This document shows, piece after piece, positions 40 to 10,868 of a stretch of 20,269 bases of DNA. Source of the stretch: a virus; the IMG/VR virus record IMGVR_UViG_3300027770_001983, positions 1 to 20,269 of that record. One strand, given 5' to 3'. The notes under the pieces were generated by a model. The model was not told the origin of the DNA and made no database searches. It worked only from the letters and a program-made list of their open reading frames with translations. Numbering within the stretch: position 1 is the stretch's first letter; each line of letters begins with the position of its first letter. Both the position numbers and the translations under genes were made by a program.

Positions 40-1149
40 TTAAACTACTGTAATTGGTATAGGCATTGCTCTAAATTTTAACTGTTTGTTTAAATTTTCT
101 GCAATAAACGCTTCTTTTTCCATTTGCTTTTCAGGACGAAGACGTTCCAACCTTTCTTTAAGTTCAGTAACTAACATAGTTTTCTCATCTTTGGACTCAG
201 TTGATAAAGACTGGTAGTCCATAGTAAGTTCACTATCGGGTGTTTTTAAGTTACCGCTGAACTTACCTCTAACTCTTGCTAAAGTTTCTTTACAATAGGC
301 TGTAAACCATCTTCTTACCCATTGTCGTGCAGGGTCATTTAAGTCCTGCCAATTTAAAGCATCTAATGGGATATCGGAAGGTAATTTCACGATATCAGGA
401 TTATCTTTTAAACATTGGTCACGGTCACCATCGGTAGTATCATAATACCAATACCAAACTTGACCTCTCATTAACTCGTTGTTTCCAAAGTCAAATTTAC
501 CACCAGGTGTGTTATATAACATGATGGCTCTTTTACCATTTGGTAATGCGGTTACACGATAACTAACATCAGGTTGAATTATTCTTCTTTTAATGTTTAT
601 ATCTTGCAAACGTGCAATTGCGTCATATGATGAAGACATAAAGTATCCGCCACCACCAGGTTGTGCAAATCCACCTGCACCTCCAATACCAGGTCCACCA
701 AATCCTCCGAATGACCAAGGGTCAAAAAGAAGGTTGTTTTCCTCTGCTGGTGAATACCAAAGTAGTTCATTAATTTCACGACCTGCGGGAATTTCATATA
801 TTTGAACATTTGATTCTAACTTAAAAAAGTCTTTTTTCAAAACCCAAGGACCTGAGTTTTGTAAACCAACAATTTTAGAATATGCGTAAGTGTATTGAGT
901 TTCCCAATCTAATGTTCTTCTAACTAAAGCATTTGCGACAGATTGTGTAGCCAAATCCATACCATACAAACTTGTCCATTGGGTTTCAATTAACCAATCA
1001 TAGACATATTGTGTATAATCACCAATGGATAATTCCAACAAGGAATCCATTTGTTCCATATCCAATTCAACAGCTCTCAATGGAGCACCCAATTGATTTA
1101 GGATACGATTATAGAGTCTGGTTCTTTCTGGTTCTGCAATAACTGCCAT
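40..1149 (-). CDS. gp13-type neck protein (head-tail connector)
   Basis: This 369-aa protein is probably the T4 gp13-type neck protein, which caps the portal after DNA packaging and links head to tail. The N-terminus (residues 12-60) has the family pattern: RILNQLGAP, then VELDMEQMD, then an acidic aromatic helix SIGDYTQYVYDWL. This resembles the T4 gp13 start, where a 'LGAP...VEL..DQ' segment precedes a tyrosine-rich helix. It is longer than T4 gp13 (about 309 aa). Part of the excess is a glycine-rich stretch at residues 147-169, which is unusual for a neck protein. The C-terminus (about 320-360) is charged and helical. The ATG at 1149 follows a TATTTATT box by 11 nt and there is no Shine-Dalgarno. 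It lies downstream of the SOD fusion on the same strand, 27 bp away, and apart from the gp14/gp15-like genes. Identification rests on motif resemblance and context. Confidence 0.82.
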   Translation of the reverse strand: MAVIAEPERTRLYNRILNQLGAPLRAVELDMEQMDSLLELSIGDYTQYVYDWLIETQWTSLYGMDLATQSVANALVRRTLDWETQYTYAYSKIVGLQNSGPWVLKKDFFKLESNVQIYEIPAGREINELLWYSPAEENNLLFDPWSFGGFGGPGIGGAGGFAQPGGGGYFMSSSYDAIARLQDINIKRRIIQPDVSYRVTALPNGKRAIMLYNTPGGKFDFGNNELMRGQVWYWYYDTTDGDRDQCLKDNPDIVKLPSDIPLDALNWQDLNDPARQWVRRWFTAYCKETLARVRGKFSGNLKTPDSELTMDYQSLSTESKDEKTMLVTELKERLERLRPEKQMEKEAFIAENLNKQLKFRAMPIPITVV

Positions 1150-1176: not shown

Positions 1177-2727
1177 TTATAATTGATACAATTTTGAATC
1201 AACTGGAAAATAATAAACCCCTTGATGTATCTTTGAATTTTTGTTATCAAAAATAACAATTGGTCCAAGATTTTTCATAAATATCATCCAATCTGTTTGA
1301 TATTTTTTTACATTTGCGGTTCCATCAACTTTATATTTGTCATCAATACGAGTAATATGACTAAAAGGTTTGATTTGTCCGGTATATTCTTTACCATCCA
1401 CGGTTATTTTTATATCAATACCTTTTATCATATCTTCTTGTGAACCTAATTCACCAATTTTGATAACATTTTCTTCACCAAATTCTTTTTTTAATCTTTC
1501 ATGTACAGCATCTTCGGTTTCACCACCTTTTTTAGATGATAAACCCATAACACTCATAATAGTTTCAAGTGTTTGTGATTCCGCCTTAAACACTCTGAAC
1601 TTAACATGGTTTAAAACTTTAATCATGTAAACCATTTCCTTAACTTGTTCCTCAGGTGTTTTATCTTTAAAATCAATTAATGGTTGGTTTGACTTTGCCA
1701 AGAATTTATTTAAATCTTTTTTCAATACACAAAAGGCACTGTAGTTTGTGTTTAAATAATTAATAATGGACCTACCTGAATCTTCTAAATTGTATATTCC
1801 CGACATTGAACCTTTTTCATATTCATCTTTATTATAATATCTGTCAGAAAAAACTTCTTTTAAGATTTGCATGATTGCGTTTTTATATAAACCTAATGCC
1901 TCACGATTTTGATTAAATAATTGTTTGGACTCCATTCTATCTGAAGATGAACATGGTTCACTTTTCGCCCCTTCGGTTAAGAATTCTTTTACACTTTCAC
2001 TTTCTTTAAGTGATTTGTCAAGTTGTTGTTTCAATGCGTCTTCAACATAGTCCCAATTCACAACTTTCCAAAAGTTTTTGATGTATTCTTCTTTTCTGTT
2101 TCTGTATCTTAGGTAATATGCGTGTTCCCACAAGTCTAATCCTAACAATGGGTAACCACCTTGTTCAACAACATCCATTAATGGGTTGTCTTGATTAGGT
2201 GTTGTCATAATTTTTAAGGTACCACGTTTGGTTAACACTAACCAACACCATCCTGAACCAAATCTGTCTTTTGCTTGTCCGTCAAATTTTTTCTTAAATG
2301 CCGCTAATGAACCAAAGTTTTGATTAAGTTTTTTTAATATTAAACCTTTTGGTGTCGTTGGTTTTGGCGATAACATTTTCCAAAACAATTGATGGTTAAA
2401 TGCTCCACCCGCTTGGTTTCTGACAAATTTGTTAAACCTTTCAATGGTTTTAACAATTTCTTCCAAAGATAAATCACCGTAATCTTTTTCACTTAAAGCG
2501 GTGTTCAACTTATCTACATAACCTTTGTAATGTTTGTTGTAATGTACGTTCATTGTCTCGGGGTCAATGAACTGTTTAAGTGCGGAATAAGAATAAGGTA
2601 ATTTTTCTACACTAATTTTTTTGGCTTCTTCAACAACTTTTCTATGTTTTACTTCTTGTTGTCGTTTTTGTTCTTTTTTTTCTAATTGTTCTTCCAAAAC
2701 TTCAATTCTGTTTTTGAGATTTTTCAT
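1177..2727 (-). CDS. Fe/Mn-family superoxide dismutase fused to a C-terminal nuclease-like domain
   Basis: The protein has 516 aa. Residues 1-40 are highly charged and probably coiled coil. Residues 42-235 are a full Fe/Mn superoxide dismutase domain, which disproportionates superoxide to oxygen and peroxide. All four metal ligands are visible: His62 (NVHYNKH), His112 (FNHQLFW), and Asp198 and His202 (LDLWEHAYY). Gly107-Gly108 before the second ligand and Gln179 in NQDNPLM follow the manganese-type pattern, so Mn or cambialistic use is likely. Residues 260-516 are not a known SOD part. The segment 403-453 (ETEDAVHERL, then GIDIK and GQIKP) resembles a PD-(D/E)XK fold with Asp438, Gln451 and Lys453. 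That assignment is tentative, and Gln replaces the usual acidic residue. The ordinary enzyme is about 200 aa, so more than half of this protein is extra. It starts 46 bp after the SNF2 stop, with a hairpin directly before the ATG. Confidence 0.88.
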   Translation of the reverse strand: MKNLKNRIEVLEEQLEKKEQKRQQEVKHRKVVEEAKKISVEKLPYSYSALKQFIDPETMNVHYNKHYKGYVDKLNTALSEKDYGDLSLEEIVKTIERFNKFVRNQAGGAFNHQLFWKMLSPKPTTPKGLILKKLNQNFGSLAAFKKKFDGQAKDRFGSGWCWLVLTKRGTLKIMTTPNQDNPLMDVVEQGGYPLLGLDLWEHAYYLRYRNRKEEYIKNFWKVVNWDYVEDALKQQLDKSLKESESVKEFLTEGAKSEPCSSSDRMESKQLFNQNREALGLYKNAIMQILKEVFSDRYYNKDEYEKGSMSGIYNLEDSGRSIINYLNTNYSAFCVLKKDLNKFLAKSNQPLIDFKDKTPEEQVKEMVYMIKVLNHVKFRVFKAESQTLETIMSVMGLSSKKGGETEDAVHERLKKEFGEENVIKIGELGSQEDMIKGIDIKITVDGKEYTGQIKPFSHITRIDDKYKVDGTANVKKYQTDWMIFMKNLGPIVIFDNKNSKIHQGVYYFPVDSKLYQL

Positions 2728-2770
2728 AAGTTCGGCTTTTGTTTTTATTAACTATAAATAAGCCGAACTT
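2728..2770 (-). promoter_or_regulatory. Perfect 11-bp hairpin abutting the SOD-fusion start codon
   Basis: AAGTTCGGCTT (2728-2738) and AAGCCGAACTT (2760-2770) are perfect inverted repeats separated by a 21-nt AT-rich loop. In the minus-strand transcript the 3' arm touches the ATG at 2727, so the folded RNA should bury the initiation region. No T-tract follows on either strand, so it does not look like an intrinsic terminator. A TATTTATA box starts at the end of the 5' arm and continues into the loop. RNA started from that box would lack the 5' arm and leave the start open. Confidence 0.7.
2753..2760 (-). promoter_or_regulatory. TATTTATA box inside the hairpin loop
   Basis: Minus-strand TATTTATA ends 25 nt before the SOD-fusion ATG. 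On the plus strand the same bases read TATAAATA, identical to the T4 late consensus but pointing away from the gene, so orientation is uncertain. Matching boxes at other genes favour the minus-strand reading. Confidence 0.5.
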
Positions 2771-2773
2771 TCA

Positions 2774-4543
2774 TTATCTTCGCATTTCATTTATTAAATT
2801 CATAATTTCTTCAACTGAGTCCGTTGAATTTGCGTTGTCACCCATGATTGTTTCAAAGATATTTTTCTTTTTCTTGAGTATATCATAGATAATCCCTTCA
2901 ACTGTGTTGTCAAAAATAGGATAATAAACTAACACGTTATTTTTTTGTCCGTAACGGTAACTACGGTCTTCGGCTTGAGAGTGGTCTGATGGTAAAAATG
3001 ATAGGTCATTCATCACAACAGCTTCAGCGGCAGTCAATGTGATACCAACACCAGCGGCTTTAATGTTTCCTACGAATATTTTAACATCTTCTTCGTTCTG
3101 AAAACGGTCAACGGACGACTGTCTTTCTTTTTGGGACATTTGTCCGTCTAATCTAACAGCATTTTTACCAAAATGTTGCAAAATTAACTCCAAACTTTTT
3201 GTAAAGTTGGTGAACACAATAACCTTCTTACCTTGTTCAATAATATTTTCACAAAGTTCAATGGTTGCCTTAGTTTTTTCTTCAGCAATTACCTGACGAA
3301 CCTTTGTTAACTTGGTAAATTGAAGTGTTAATGAATCTGATTCACCACTTTTATCGTACCAATCGTAATACTCACCCATAAGTTCTTCATATTCATTTGA
3401 TTTCAACCTCAAATAAACAGGTGTAATAATCTTTTCGGGTAAATCTAATACATTTTCCTTCAATCTACGTAAAACAAGTGGTGATGTCCTATCTCTTAAC
3501 TCTTCCAAGTTGGATGCTCCACTTACATTCCATATCTTACGTCTACCCGCTTGAAATTGAAAACCATTACAATACCTTTTTACATATGCCATCCAATTCT
3601 GAGCTACAGGTGAGTCAATTAAACTCAATAAATTGAAGTAATTAATTGGTCTTGATGTAATTGGGGTACCAGTTAACAACCAAACACGTTCAACTTTCTT
3701 TCCAATGTCATTAATTAACTTTGTTCTTTGGGCTTGAGAGTTCTGAACGTAGTGTGCTTCATCTATAATCACCAAATCAAACTTTGATTTAACAATAATT
3801 GATTCGGTTTTCTTTTTATCATCATGGAAATTTTTAATAATATCATAATTGATGATGACAAAGTCGGCTTCGTCCCATTTTTTACCTTCAATGATACTTG
3901 TCGTTCTATCTGAATAGTTCTCAATCTCTCTTTGCCAGTTAATCTTTAAAGAAGCAGGACAAATAATTAACATTTTCTTCGCTCCCGTTTCCAAAGCGGC
4001 AATAATTGTTGAAGTTGTTTTACCCAAACCCATATCATCGGCCAAAATAAATTTTTTATTCTCAACCAATTTTTGGATTGCTTCTTTTTGGTGCTCAAGT
4101 GGTGGACGGTGTGAATACTTATCGTAATCAATCACAACATTCTCAACTTTATTGTTTTTAATCAAAGCAACTTTGGGTAACCAAAAGTCGTGGAGTTCCT
4201 GACTATCAAAAAATTTCCCCCAAATATGATAAGAGGTGTCTTTTTCAATTAAAAGTTTTTCAACATAAACTTGTGTTGCAATTTTAGTGAATAATTTTTC
4301 ATCAGAAATTTTTTTAGAAAAATACTCATCCAACTCAACCCATTTTTTTGCAACCTTTGGAGTTGTATTAATGTAGTTTACAATATATTCTGCTTGAGCT
4401 CTTGTTGGATAAAACTTTTTATTATCTATTTGTTTTTTTCTTAAACGCATGATGTAGTTGTTGGCCCCTGAATAGGTTTCCAACAAATCAAGTGCCTTTC
4501 TTTCTAATACAGAGACATTATATGTGTTTTCAGTATTTTCCAA
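2774..4543 (-). CDS. SNF2-family DNA translocase/helicase
   Basis: This 589-aa superfamily 2 ATPase is of the SNF2 type; such proteins translocate on double-stranded DNA and remodel or reverse DNA structures. All motifs are present in order: LEHQKEAI (149-156), Walker A DDMGLGKT (169-176), ICPASLK (194-200), Walker B DEAH (261-264), LLTGTP (289-294), VFTNF (443-447), IKAAGVGITLT (494-504), and motif VI DRSYRYGQ (526-533). The enzyme therefore looks intact. The N-terminal 140 residues are an accessory region without a clear assignment. The likely start is TTG at 4543: no ATG occurs in frame before the upstream stop, and the next ATG (residue 32) would cut into what looks like folded sequence. 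It is divergent from the plus-strand neck genes across 39 bp and precedes the SOD fusion. It could serve replication, recombination or repair, or control of transcription; the sequence does not decide. Confidence 0.9.
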   Translation of the reverse strand: MENTENTYNVSVLERKALDLLETYSGANNYIMRLRKKQIDNKKFYPTRAQAEYIVNYINTTPKVAKKWVELDEYFSKKISDEKLFTKIATQVYVEKLLIEKDTSYHIWGKFFDSQELHDFWLPKVALIKNNKVENVVIDYDKYSHRPPLEHQKEAIQKLVENKKFILADDMGLGKTTSTIIAALETGAKKMLIICPASLKINWQREIENYSDRTTSIIEGKKWDEADFVIINYDIIKNFHDDKKKTESIIVKSKFDLVIIDEAHYVQNSQAQRTKLINDIGKKVERVWLLTGTPITSRPINYFNLLSLIDSPVAQNWMAYVKRYCNGFQFQAGRRKIWNVSGASNLEELRDRTSPLVLRRLKENVLDLPEKIITPVYLRLKSNEYEELMGEYYDWYDKSGESDSLTLQFTKLTKVRQVIAEEKTKATIELCENIIEQGKKVIVFTNFTKSLELILQHFGKNAVRLDGQMSQKERQSSVDRFQNEEDVKIFVGNIKAAGVGITLTAAEAVVMNDLSFLPSDHSQAEDRSYRYGQKNNVLVYYPIFDNTVEGIIYDILKKKKNIFETIMGDNANSTDSVEEIMNLINEMRR

Positions 4544-6870: not shown

Positions 6871-9800
6871 ATGGCAGTAGCAAATAAAGTTTTCGTTTCT
6901 CCAGGTGTATACACATCTGAGTATGACTTAAGTTTTGTAGCTCAAAGTGTTGGTGTAACTACTTTGGGTGTTGTGGGTGAAACTCAAACGGGTCCAGCGT
7001 TTGAACCAATTTTCATAACAAACTACAGTGACTTTGAATCGTATTTCGGTGGTACAATCCCTGAAAAATTTGTCAATACACAAATTCCAAAGTACGAATT
7101 AGCGTACATTGCTAAATCTTATCTACAACAATCTAACCAATTGTTTGTGACCAGAGTTTTGGGTCTATCGGGTTACGATGCCGGTCCATCTTGGTCAATC
7201 ACAACTATCGCAAACGTTGACGGTACAACTGTTGGTTTAAATGGAAGCTCAACAGCAATTTCTGTCAATTTTACAGGAACCACAGGTTCAACAACCATGA
7301 CTTTCTTGGGTTCATTTCCGGCACAAATTCAAAATGAATTGGATGTCCCATTTACTCAGTTTGATGGTAGTACAAGTACATTAAGAACACAAATTAATTC
7401 TCAATTGTATGGTATATTACTAAATAATAGTTTTTCAGGAACTTCAGCTTACTATTATGGTACCATTCCAACTGCAGCATATAATACATTATCACCAACT
7501 TATACCGCAGAAACAAACGTTTATCAAGTTTCAGGTTTAAGTGAAAATGTTGCTGACTATACAGCGTCTGTTGATGATACTTGGTATTATGCAAACTTTA
7601 ACATTTCTTCAGGTGATAACTACACAGGTTATTCTTGGTATGGTATTGTAACATCATTAACCGGTGCTTCAGGAAATTATTCGGGAACAGTAACAGGTAA
7701 TTTATATAATTACACAGGTACCGCTTTCTCACAATACAATAATTTAGTTGCAGCAACACTTCGTTCAAGAGGTATTGCAACATACGTAAATGATAATGGA
7801 CCTGTCTATACAGTGTCAGGTTTAACAGATGTTATAATTAATTCTTCAGGAACATATTCAGGAATTACACAAAATCCTTTTGCTGAGTTCGCAATATCAG
7901 GACAAACAGCGTCAGGAAATGATTTCTCATTCATGACTTCATTGAGTACCTCAAATACTGATTATATTTCTAAAGTATTTGGTCAAACTAACTTTGGTAA
8001 AATAAGAACTGAGGTTCCTTTATTTGTTGAAGAAACATTCCCAAATTTATTAAATTATGCTTATAACAAAGGTTACATTAGAGGTATCAATACTACTTTT
8101 ATTGCTTTACCTGGTGTAAGATATAGTGACACAACTGATACAATCGCAGATTATTTAGTTAAATATCAATCAGCTGAATCACCATGGGTTGTTTCTCAAT
8201 TACGTGGTAATTTGGTTCAAAGATTATTTAAAATAATTTCAGTTTGTGACGGCGATTCTGCTAACTTACAAATTAAAATATCTATCATAAATATTTCATA
8301 CACAAATGGTTCGTTTGATTTGGTTGTTCGTGATTTCTACGACACGGATTCAAACCCTGTTGTGATTGAAAAATACACAAATTGTACTTTAGACCCAGCT
8401 AACAATAGTTATGTCGCGGTTAAGGTTGGTACTAGCAATGGTGAATACGCTTTGAATTCAAAATACATAATGTTGGAAATGAATGAAGACGCAAGTCCTG
8501 ATTCATTACCTTGTGGTTTTGAAGGATTTGAAATTAGAGAATATGCAAGTGCTACACCTCCATTCCCAATATATAAAACATCATATAACTATCCAGGTGA
8601 AGTTATCTATAACCCACCATTTGGTAACACTGCGGGTCAAGATAATACTGTTAAAAGTGCTGGTGATAGAACAAGAACATCTTATTTGGGTATTTCATCA
8701 CAAGTTGGTTATGACCCTAATTTCTATATGTTTAAAGGTGTTCAAAAACCAAACAATCTTTGTATTGAAGACCCTTACGAACCTTGGGCTTATAAAACAA
8801 AAGGATTCCACATGGACTCAGGTGCTACGGTGGTTACAATCGTTGCAGGTCCAACAGCTGGACAACCAGCGTTCTTTGTTGGTGACGCTTCGTTCCAATC
8901 TGAACCTGAAACTATTACAAGTCCATACTATACAATTCAATCAAGAAAATTCACTTTTTTAGTTCAGAAAGGTTTTGATGGTTGGGACATATATACAGAA
9001 AAAAGAACAAACACAGACAGATTCCAATTAGGTAATGCTGGTTATCAAAAAGGAGCTTGTTCAACAACAAGATATCCAAACGCAACTGGTTGGGGAGCGT
9101 TTAAACCGATTGCTTTAGGTGAATTCACTGACTACGCAAATACCGACTATTACGCATACTTGTTAGGTATTAATACATTTGCAAACCCTGAAGCAACGAC
9201 TATCAACGTATTTGCAACTCCAGGTATTGATTATGTAAATAATTCAAATTTAGTAGAAGATGCAATTTCAATGGTAACTTATAACAGAGCAGATTCAATC
9301 TACGTTTGTACAACACCTGACTGTAATGTAAACATACCAATTCAAACTGATAATTTTGTTTATCCAACCGAAGCGGTTGATAATTTAAATAACACAGGTA
9401 TTGATTCTAACTACACAGCTACTTACTACCCTTGGATTTTGGTTAGAGATACTGTTAACAACACACAAATTTATATCCCACCAACAAATGAGGTGTGTAG
9501 AAACTTGGCGTTGACTGATAACGTATCATTCCCTTGGTTCGCAACTGCGGGTTACACAAGAGGTTTGGTAAATGCGGTTAAAGCTCGTAAGAAACTTACA
9601 CAATCAGATAGAGATACATTGTATCAAGGTAGAATTAACCCTATCGCAACTTTCTCTGATGTTGGAACTGTAATTTGGGGTAATAAAACATTACAAATTG
9701 CTGACACAGCACTTAACAGAATTAACGTTAGAAGATTGTTATTACAAGCTCGTAAGTTAATTTCAGCTGTGGCTGTAAGATTGTTGTTTGAACAGAACGA

Positions 9801-10026
9801 TTCTAAAGTTAGACAAGATTTTTTAGATGCGGTTAATCCTATTTTGGACGCTATTAGAAGAGACAGAGGTCTTTATGATTTCAGAGTTACAGTAAGTAAC
9901 AATCCTGAAGATTTAGATAAAAACCAAATGGTTGGTAAAATTTATTTGAAACCAACTAAAGCTTTGGAATTTATTGATATTGAATTCTTCATTACTCCAA
10001 CAGGAGCATCATTTGAGAATATCTAA
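6871..10026 (+). CDS. Contractile tail sheath protein (gp18-type)
   Basis: This is the polymerising sheath that contracts around the tube during injection. The N-terminus VSPGVYTSEYDLS (9-21), followed by VGVTTLGVVGETQTGP, is the signature of T4-type sheaths, whose N-terminal arm weaves into neighbouring subunits. The C-terminal 120 residues (ISAVAVRLLFEQND, then FRVTVSNNPED and FIDIEFFITPTG) form the conserved sheath core. A middle segment near residue 485 (VVRDFYDTDSNPVVIEKY) also matches the family. At 1051 aa it is far longer than T4 gp18 (659 aa). The excess lies mainly at about residues 110-370, rich in Ser, Thr, Gly, Asn and Tyr with recurring short motifs such as YTG, SGN and YSG. That region is probably a surface-exposed beta domain. 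The ATG at 6871 is preceded by TAAATAAA. The HAD gene follows after 5 bp. Confidence 0.96.
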   Translation: MAVANKVFVSPGVYTSEYDLSFVAQSVGVTTLGVVGETQTGPAFEPIFITNYSDFESYFGGTIPEKFVNTQIPKYELAYIAKSYLQQSNQLFVTRVLGLSGYDAGPSWSITTIANVDGTTVGLNGSSTAISVNFTGTTGSTTMTFLGSFPAQIQNELDVPFTQFDGSTSTLRTQINSQLYGILLNNSFSGTSAYYYGTIPTAAYNTLSPTYTAETNVYQVSGLSENVADYTASVDDTWYYANFNISSGDNYTGYSWYGIVTSLTGASGNYSGTVTGNLYNYTGTAFSQYNNLVAATLRSRGIATYVNDNGPVYTVSGLTDVIINSSGTYSGITQNPFAEFAISGQTASGNDFSFMTSLSTSNTDYISKVFGQTNFGKIRTEVPLFVEETFPNLLNYAYNKGYIRGINTTFIALPGVRYSDTTDTIADYLVKYQSAESPWVVSQLRGNLVQRLFKIISVCDGDSANLQIKISIINISYTNGSFDLVVRDFYDTDSNPVVIEKYTNCTLDPANNSYVAVKVGTSNGEYALNSKYIMLEMNEDASPDSLPCGFEGFEIREYASATPPFPIYKTSYNYPGEVIYNPPFGNTAGQDNTVKSAGDRTRTSYLGISSQVGYDPNFYMFKGVQKPNNLCIEDPYEPWAYKTKGFHMDSGATVVTIVAGPTAGQPAFFVGDASFQSEPETITSPYYTIQSRKFTFLVQKGFDGWDIYTEKRTNTDRFQLGNAGYQKGACSTTRYPNATGWGAFKPIALGEFTDYANTDYYAYLLGINTFANPEATTINVFATPGIDYVNNSNLVEDAISMVTYNRADSIYVCTTPDCNVNIPIQTDNFVYPTEAVDNLNNTGIDSNYTATYYPWILVRDTVNNTQIYIPPTNEVCRNLALTDNVSFPWFATAGYTRGLVNAVKARKKLTQSDRDTLYQGRINPIATFSDVGTVIWGNKTLQIADTALNRINVRRLLLQARKLISAVAVRLLFEQNDSKVRQDFLDAVNPILDAIRRDRGLYDFRVTVSNNPEDLDKNQMVGKIYLKPTKALEFIDIEFFITPTGASFENI

Positions 10027-10031
10027 TTTAA

Positions 10032-10868
10032 ATGATTAAAACAAAAACAAATATCCCAGTGTCATCATTACTTGAAGGTTTTGATGACGCTGGTTCGCCA
10101 GATTTAAAATATTACGCATTTGACTGGGATGACAATTTAATGTTCATGCCAACAAAAATCATCTTACAGGATTCTAAAGGAGCTGAAGTTCCAATGTCTA
10201 CCGAAGATTATGCACAATACAGACATGTTATTGGAAAAGAGCCTTTTAATTATAAAGGGTATGAAATTGTAGGTTATGCAGATTCCCCATACCGAAACTT
10301 TAGAAAAGAGGGTGACAAACAATTTAAAATTGATTCAATGAAAGCAAAACCAGGTCCGGCTTGGTCTGATTTTATAGAAGCAATAAACAATGGGTCTATA
10401 TTTTCAATTATTACGGCTAGAGGTCACCATCCTGATACTATTAAAGATGCGATTTATAATTTAATAATCACAAATCATAATGGGGTAAATAAAGATTTAT
10501 TAATTAAAAATCTAAAAAAATACAGGGACATTGTAGGTTTGGAGGATAAAAGTGATTTAGAATTAATCAGGGAATACTTAGATTTAAATAAATATTATCC
10601 AGTTACTTTTAGCGACAGTTCAGGAACTGCAAACCCCGAGAAATTAAAAGTGAATGCTATGAGAGAATTTATATCATATGTAAAATCTCAAGCAAACATA
10701 TTAGGTAAAAAACTATTTGTTAAAAATGATATATCTAATAAGTTTATTCCTAGTATTGGTTTTTCTGATGATGATATAAAGAATGTAGAAACTATGAAGA
10801 CTAGTTTAGAAGATGAACCATCTCTTAAAACTTATTATACTGGACAAGGAACTAAAACTAGATTCTAA
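10032..10868 (+). CDS. HAD-superfamily phosphatase
   Basis: This 278-aa protein has the four HAD motifs. Motif I is AFDWDDNL, with Asp31 as nucleophile and Asp33 as acid/base. Motif II is Thr128 in SIITARGHHP. Motif III is probably a lysine near 205-207. Motif IV is the acidic GFSDDDIKN (243-251). A long cap-like insertion lies between motifs I and II (about 40-120). The fold hydrolyses phosphate esters; the substrate cannot be read from sequence. Phage relatives of this kind include 5'-nucleotidase-like and polynucleotide 3'-phosphatase-like enzymes, but no kinase domain is present here. The ATG is 5 bp after the sheath stop, so it is probably co-transcribed with a highly expressed structural gene. 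Its place between sheath and tube is unusual, because these are adjacent in T4. The C-terminal 20 residues look disordered. Confidence 0.82.
   Translation: MIKTKTNIPVSSLLEGFDDAGSPDLKYYAFDWDDNLMFMPTKIILQDSKGAEVPMSTEDYAQYRHVIGKEPFNYKGYEIVGYADSPYRNFRKEGDKQFKIDSMKAKPGPAWSDFIEAINNGSIFSIITARGHHPDTIKDAIYNLIITNHNGVNKDLLIKNLKKYRDIVGLEDKSDLELIREYLDLNKYYPVTFSDSSGTANPEKLKVNAMREFISYVKSQANILGKKLFVKNDISNKFIPSIGFSDDDIKNVETMKTSLEDEPSLKTYYTGQGTKTRF

Follow-up and report, generated by a model that had tools for sequence, protein, structure and literature searches.

A conserved superoxide dismutase–nuclease-fold fusion of large T4-type phages is probably a processed internal head precursor

Introduction

The internal proteins of bacteriophage T4 carry capsid-targeting propeptides of 10–19 residues, and the T4 protease gp21 cleaves C-terminal to the motif L/I-X-E (PMC9026906). 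Foreign enzymes joined to the signal of one of these proteins, IPIII, are packaged and carried into the host cell (PMC9026906), and processing at multiple sites within one head protein has been documented in T4 and in giant phages (PMC5694885). A superoxide dismutase (SOD) is expressed late and packaged in the virion of the algal virus PBCV-1, whose infection is accompanied by lower superoxide than that of the SOD-less virus NY-2A (PMC7019647). Motif variations are known within the PD-(D/E)XK nuclease superfamily, and the corresponding residues of Hjc are spaced as D33/E46/K48 (PMC1913061).

Here we analyse a viral DNA of 20,269 nucleotides (IMG/VR record IMGVR_UViG_3300027770_001983, hereafter the window) that encodes an SOD fused to a C-terminal region with a nuclease-like motif. 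Relatives of the fusion are numerous, and conserved motifs in its linkers make it probable, as judged from sequence, that the 516-residue protein is an internal head precursor that is packaged and then cleaved by the prohead protease.

Results

The fusion gene lies at positions 1177..2727 of the minus strand as a single frame of 516 codons starting with ATG, and its product consists of an N-terminal helix, an Fe/Mn SOD, a linker, a helical domain and a PD-(D/E)XK-fold domain. The sequence-only reading of the window had reported the same open reading frame, without its strand, and had named two separate genes joined by a frameshift error as the alternative to a true fusion. An IMG/VR scan confirmed by tblastn found 199 loci encoding a relative of the protein; 80 relatives were kept, most of which align unbroken to residues 1–516. 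The frames extracted for the SOD-bearing forms are uninterrupted and encode 504–525 amino acids, and the nonredundant relatives show 46–85% identity. Nucleotide comparisons of relatives gave dN/dS values of 0.015–0.08 for the SOD and mostly of 0.03–0.22 for the C-terminal domains; strong purifying selection thus acts on the SOD and, in most comparisons, on the C-terminal domains. Recurrence of the full-length frame in many independent contigs, at this level of divergence, refutes an assembly or frameshift artefact with near certainty. The fusion is a genuine single protein and, nearly all of the relatives examined being full length, a conserved architecture.

No GenBank phage record matches the fusion protein over its full length, and plasmid records match it through the SOD part only. 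The freshwater SOD record MW462191, considered as a relative, was rejected as an ordinary stand-alone SOD among bacterial-type genes. In the BFVD structure library, the 501-residue protein A0A6J5L953 of an uncultured Caudovirales phage matches the C-terminal model with a TM score of 0.92 and 36% identity, so the fusion is already deposited as a sequence and is not new as such; a search of the open literature found no description of an SOD–nuclease fusion. No family in a library of defence systems matches the fusion protein, for which a defence role was once suggested.

The SOD domain (residues 38–232; 2032..2616, minus strand) is recognized by Pfam Sod_Fe_N over residues 40–120 (E 1e-20, 74 bits against a cut-off of 27) and by Sod_Fe_C over residues 127–230 (E 6e-39, 132.7 bits against a cut-off of 20.9), and its nearest solved structures are the MnSODs 6gsc and 5a9g. 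The metal ligands His62, His112, Asp198 and His202, together with Gln179, are invariant in 21 aligned relatives, so that the SOD still looks catalytically competent, as had been proposed; Gln179 and the motif GGAFNH suggest manganese as the metal. Stand-alone Fe/Mn SODs are also encoded by other jumbo phages, namely the PA5oct group and Vibrio phage 2.275.O.

Sequence searches of residues 250–516 against Pfam, PHROGs, NCBIfam and the PDB returned no significant family, so the fold assignment of the C-terminal part is drawn from AlphaFold and structure comparison. The AlphaFold model of residues 253–516, built from 51 aligned relatives, has a pLDDT of 91.5 and a pTM of 0.84. Foldseek against the PDB ranked the homing endonuclease I-Ssp6803I first (E 0.0036), followed by Hjc resolvases. 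VIA-align placed Hjc best (Z 9.0 over 103 residues, rmsd 3.3), and the matches below it are mostly PD-(D/E)XK proteins, including NhoI, I-Ssp6803I (Z 7.8), Eco15I, HhaI, DpnI, RecU and PvuII; they span model residues of about 145–264, equivalent to protein residues ∼397–516. With the top VIA-align matches almost all PD-(D/E)XK nucleases, the prediction that residues 395–516 (1180..1545, minus strand) adopt this fold is firm by computation. The nuclease-like assignment in the sequence-only reading thus holds for residues 395–516 and fails for the rest of 250–516, where residues 261–394 form a conserved helical domain (1546..1947, minus strand; GRSxINxLNTNYSxFC...DxN). This domain, which was modelled and structure-searched jointly with the nuclease domain, belongs to no known family, with no Pfam or PHROG match above threshold.

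The two motifs noted previously are present, GIDIK containing D438 (1414..1416, minus strand) and GQIKP containing Q451-I452-K453 (1369..1377, minus strand). E405 provides the acidic residue of motif I, D438 that of motif II and K453 the lysine of motif III; these residues and Q451 show no variation across 51 relatives, some of them SOD-less. The canonical acidic residue of motif III is replaced by Q451 in 51/51, and we accordingly describe the domain by its fold, as a QxK variant whose nuclease activity is predicted. D438 and Q451 are 13 residues apart, and the resulting D-x12-Q-x-K spacing equals that of Hjc. The 735-kb phage LR756501 encodes a distant homologue of the C-terminal domains as a protein of its own (L197:3755-4627), in which GVD and QCK motifs are recognizable; this homologue keeps the D, Q and K and a nearby E and has no obvious propeptide, and no SOD was seen in that record. 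LR756501 is among the largest known phage genomes. When the C-terminal alignment was searched against bacterial and archaeal genomes, the one match was weak and covered 62 residues; a cellular source was not found.

Very low confidence in the full-length AlphaFold model is confined to two stretches, residues 28–35 and 240–250. The first falls within the N-terminal charged helix recognized earlier, which the model extends over residues 2–36 and which we propose as a capsid-targeting propeptide (residues 1–34; 2626..2727, minus strand). Apart from its end, this segment is poorly conserved (mean majority identity 0.37), and the linkers around E34, E242 and E252 reach only 0.37–0.48 in 46 SOD-form relatives. 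Each linker nevertheless holds a strongly conserved glutamate, a feature that the sequence-only reading did not mention. Site 1 (residues 32–34, VEE↓A, the arrow marking the candidate cut; 2626..2634, minus strand) has E34 in 45/46 SOD-form relatives, with Leu (20), Ile (18) or Val (7) at P3; the window itself has Val. Site 2 (residues 240–242, LKE↓S; 2002..2010, minus strand; pLDDT below 50 at 240–250) has E242 in all 46, with Leu (27), Ile (15) or Val (4) at P3 and Ser at P1' in 34. Site 3 (residues 250–252, LTE↓G; 1972..1980, minus strand) has E252 in 51/51 relatives, five of them SOD-less, with Leu (43), Ile (7) or Met (1) at P3 and Gly, Ser, Gln, Thr or Ala at P1', Gln in 10 of the 51. 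A hydrophobic P3 residue (Leu, Ile or Val) occurs at the three sites in 98–100% of the 46 SOD-form relatives.

Motifs as short as [LIV]-x-E are common; the protein contains 15 of them, from which these three are singled out by conservation and position only. Glutamate is conserved at a level of at least 90% in ten columns, and in half of these P3 is Leu, Ile or Val: besides the three candidate sites, they are E201, within the active-site motif of the SOD, and E364, in the helical domain. The gp21 motif is matched better by sites 2 and 3 than by site 1, where the window has Val in place of Leu or Ile at P3 and Met occupies P1' in 26/46 relatives, an atypical gp21 context; this Met may be the old start codon of the SOD. 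Since the linkers carry conserved [LIV]-x-E motifs, the helix, the SOD and the nuclease are likelier to be separated in the head than to work as a coupled unit, and the earlier idea of redox sensing coupled to DNA processing loses ground.

The window does not extend to the protease region, and the protease is known from related contigs. Of 12 large contigs with the fusion family, 7 encode a gp23 capsid protein together with an S77 (gp21-type) prohead protease (E ~1e-24); neither was detected in the other five, probably because these are fragments. In 7/7 of the contigs with both genes, LINE↓A occurs in the capsid protein at about residue 60; the gp22-like scaffold contains LxE motifs followed by ↓A, ↓S or ↓Q, P1' residues that are shared with site 3. 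Closest GenBank matches of the capsid protein include an uncultured huge phage, a Microcystis phage, the Flavobacterium phages 'immuto' and Rhodothermus phage RM378, the last being the reference of the 'Far-T4' clade, which is frequent in freshwater and marine habitats (PMC4360716). Flavobacterium and Rhodothermus phages being among the isolates with the closest capsid proteins, a Bacteroidota host is plausible. The gene's phage is probably a large T4-type phage of the Far-T4 group.

A late-promoter-like element, TATTTATA, is situated at 2753..2760 (minus strand), at −33 from the fusion start codon. Among relatives, TATTTAT precedes the fusion gene in 50/51 (14–37 bases from the start codon), the neck gene in 49/49 and the helicase gene in 3/43, and it also precedes gp20, gp21, gp22 and sheath genes. 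In a 295-kb relative (G001), it stands before 80/298 genes, among them sheath, tube, gp21 and gp22 genes, and is the commonest permutation of the 7-mer, the next occurring before 41. By position and gene class, TATTTAT(A) is a candidate late promoter of this phage group; it was seen 10–40 bases ahead of many genes, including most virion genes, in G001 (L182–L195), the window and the relatives. An 11-base inverted repeat, AAGTTCGGCTT / AAGCCGAACTT (window positions 2728–2738 and 2760–2770), flanks TATTTATA directly before the fusion start codon and is largely kept in the closest relatives.

N-terminal LxE motifs are only mildly commoner in G001 among genes with the late element (24/80) than among the others (44/218), a difference that we do not take as proof. 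The same genome (L188, L189) contains two pairs of otherwise different proteins whose N-termini are nearly identical as far as L-x-E or slightly beyond, reading MKNLLNISEEEKNRILEMHTSATNKHYL[NK]E↓Q... and MKKFIITEEEK.RILGMH...SLNE↓[QS]... (for example G001:C1:165728-166174, 173390-174190, 175043-175477 and 181516-182211). Three of these four proteins have the TATTTAT element, and the shared N-termini look like capsid-targeting propeptide cassettes.

The fusion gene is flanked downstream, in nearly all relatives checked, by a head–tail adaptor (neck) gene (40..1149, minus strand; phrog_211) and directly upstream, in all relatives checked, by an SNF2/UvsW-type DNA helicase gene (2774..4543, minus strand; PF00176, phrog_62). 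The order g171/helicase/fusion/neck is kept in every locus checked, with or without the SOD, and two loci (L146 and L147) have extra sequence between the fusion and neck genes. The helicase matches many SNF2 helicases of the defence library because the helicase fold is shared. Elsewhere in the window, the tail sheath protein (6871–10026, plus strand) has 1051 residues, about twice the length of its PHROG tail-sheath family, and sheath families match only its C-terminal ∼330 residues. Between the tail sheath and tail tube genes lies a gene for 278 residues (10032–10868, plus strand) whose product starts MIKTKTNIPVSSLLEGFDDAG, has a phosphatase-like FDWDDN motif and an LxE↓G near the N-terminus, and matches nothing in Pfam, PHROGs or NCBIfam.

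In a maximum-likelihood tree, the SOD-less forms constitute one nested clade (support 100/99) that lacks the SOD only and retains the site at residue 252. Because of this nesting, a single loss is simpler than repeated gains, and loss of the SOD is the likely direction, with a root that hangs on one very distant outgroup. A 308-kb SOD-less relative has no SOD gene anywhere in its record.

Discussion

The late-type promoter element and the place beside the neck gene favour packaging in the virion. We propose that the N-terminal helix would target the 516-residue precursor into the prohead core, where a gp21-type (S77) prohead protease would cut after E34, E242 and E252 during head maturation. 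Cleavage would free an active Mn-type SOD of about residues 35–242 and a C-terminal protein, residues 253–516, made of the helical and PD-(D/E)XK-fold nuclease domains. Both fragments would remain in the head with the DNA and then pass into the next host cell. There the SOD could remove superoxide early in infection, a host-protecting role, and the nuclease could act on host or branched DNA. The component steps are not equally secure: packaging and cleavage are probable. On whether an active SOD is delivered and lowers superoxide in early infection, for which PBCV-1 offers the best parallel, we are evenly divided; we see the same balance for a natural two-enzyme T4-type head precursor whose SOD and nuclease are released in the capsid and both injected with the genome. 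A nuclease held beside the phage's own DNA would need restraint, which is a counterpoint to the packaged precursor.

Several other explanations have to be weighed, and the confidences overlap since those that involve packaging share this step with the precursor reading. If the protein were a soluble bifunctional enzyme that is never packaged, the SOD would protect the cell, the nuclease would act on DNA of the phage or of the host, and the linkers would serve only as flexible hinges. Such a function would suit two enzymatic domains and the occurrence of SODs as ordinary genes in other jumbo phages, and packaging itself is a step that we infer. It leaves unexplained, however, why three glutamates stay invariant in variable linkers of low pLDDT, and the fusion shares its promoter-like element with neck, head and tail genes while the adjacent helicase gene is without it; we regard a soluble enzyme as quite improbable.

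The protein might also be packaged with a C-terminal region that is a structural or DNA-binding part near the neck, not an active nuclease, the SOD being a passenger on its packaging signal. The conserved place beside the neck gene, the clade that dropped the SOD and retained the rest, the Gln in motif III and the distant stand-alone homologue in the 735-kb phage all suit such a role. Invariance of E405, D438, Q451 and K453 in 51 relatives, and the D, Q, K and nearby E kept even by the 735-kb phage protein, are what is expected of a catalytic site, and we hold such a non-nuclease part to be possible though on the doubtful side. Alternatively, the nuclease domain could resolve Holliday junctions or branches and so clear the DNA to be packaged, in a role like that of T4 endonuclease VII, the SOD being incidental. 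Archaeal Hjc proteins are the best VIA-align matches and share the D-x12-[E/Q]-x-K spacing; but the scores of NhoI, Eco15I, DpnI, HhaI and a homing endonuclease are only slightly lower, so the substrate is not readable from the fold, and retention of the SOD in most relatives under strong purifying selection does not suit an incidental partner. We consider the resolvase function unlikely.

If the packaged-precursor reading is true, the gene would be nature's own equivalent of the capsid-targeting fusions engineered in T4, and its SOD would act as an ejected phage protein. Widespread phages would then bring an oxygen-radical scavenger with them at DNA entry, and superoxide as a limit on early phage infection would become directly testable. 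The conserved cut sites would offer a sequence-only route to further head-packaged proteins in uncultured T4-type phages.

Compared with described proteins, A0A6J5L953 is evidently the same fusion; its name says only 'superoxide dismutase', and the C-terminal domains and processing sites are undescribed in it. The PA5oct-group and Vibrio phage 2.275.O enzymes are likewise Fe/Mn SODs of large phages but are only about 28–31% identical, consist of the SOD alone and leave the C-terminal domain unmatched. Hjc and I-Ssp6803I have the PD-(D/E)XK core in common with the fusion, and Hjc also the motif spacing; neither has detectable sequence similarity or a shared function shown, and the fusion has an extra helical domain of 130 residues. 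PBCV-1 A245R is also a late-type virus SOD that is missing from some relatives (PMC7019647), but it is a Cu/Zn enzyme encoded by a stand-alone gene of a chlorovirus, whereas the phage has an Fe/Mn SOD inside a putative precursor. The fusion resembles T4 IPI, IPII, IPIII and Alt (PMC9026906) in its putative N-terminal propeptide, which would end in a candidate site of the L/I-X-E type, in the S77 protease encoded by its phage group, in its late-type promoter-like element and, as proposed here, in ejection with the DNA. No sequence relationship to them is shown, and their propeptides are shorter than the ∼34 residues of the fusion; in contrast to the T4 internal proteins, the fusion precursor would combine two enzyme-like folded domains and have internal sites separating them.
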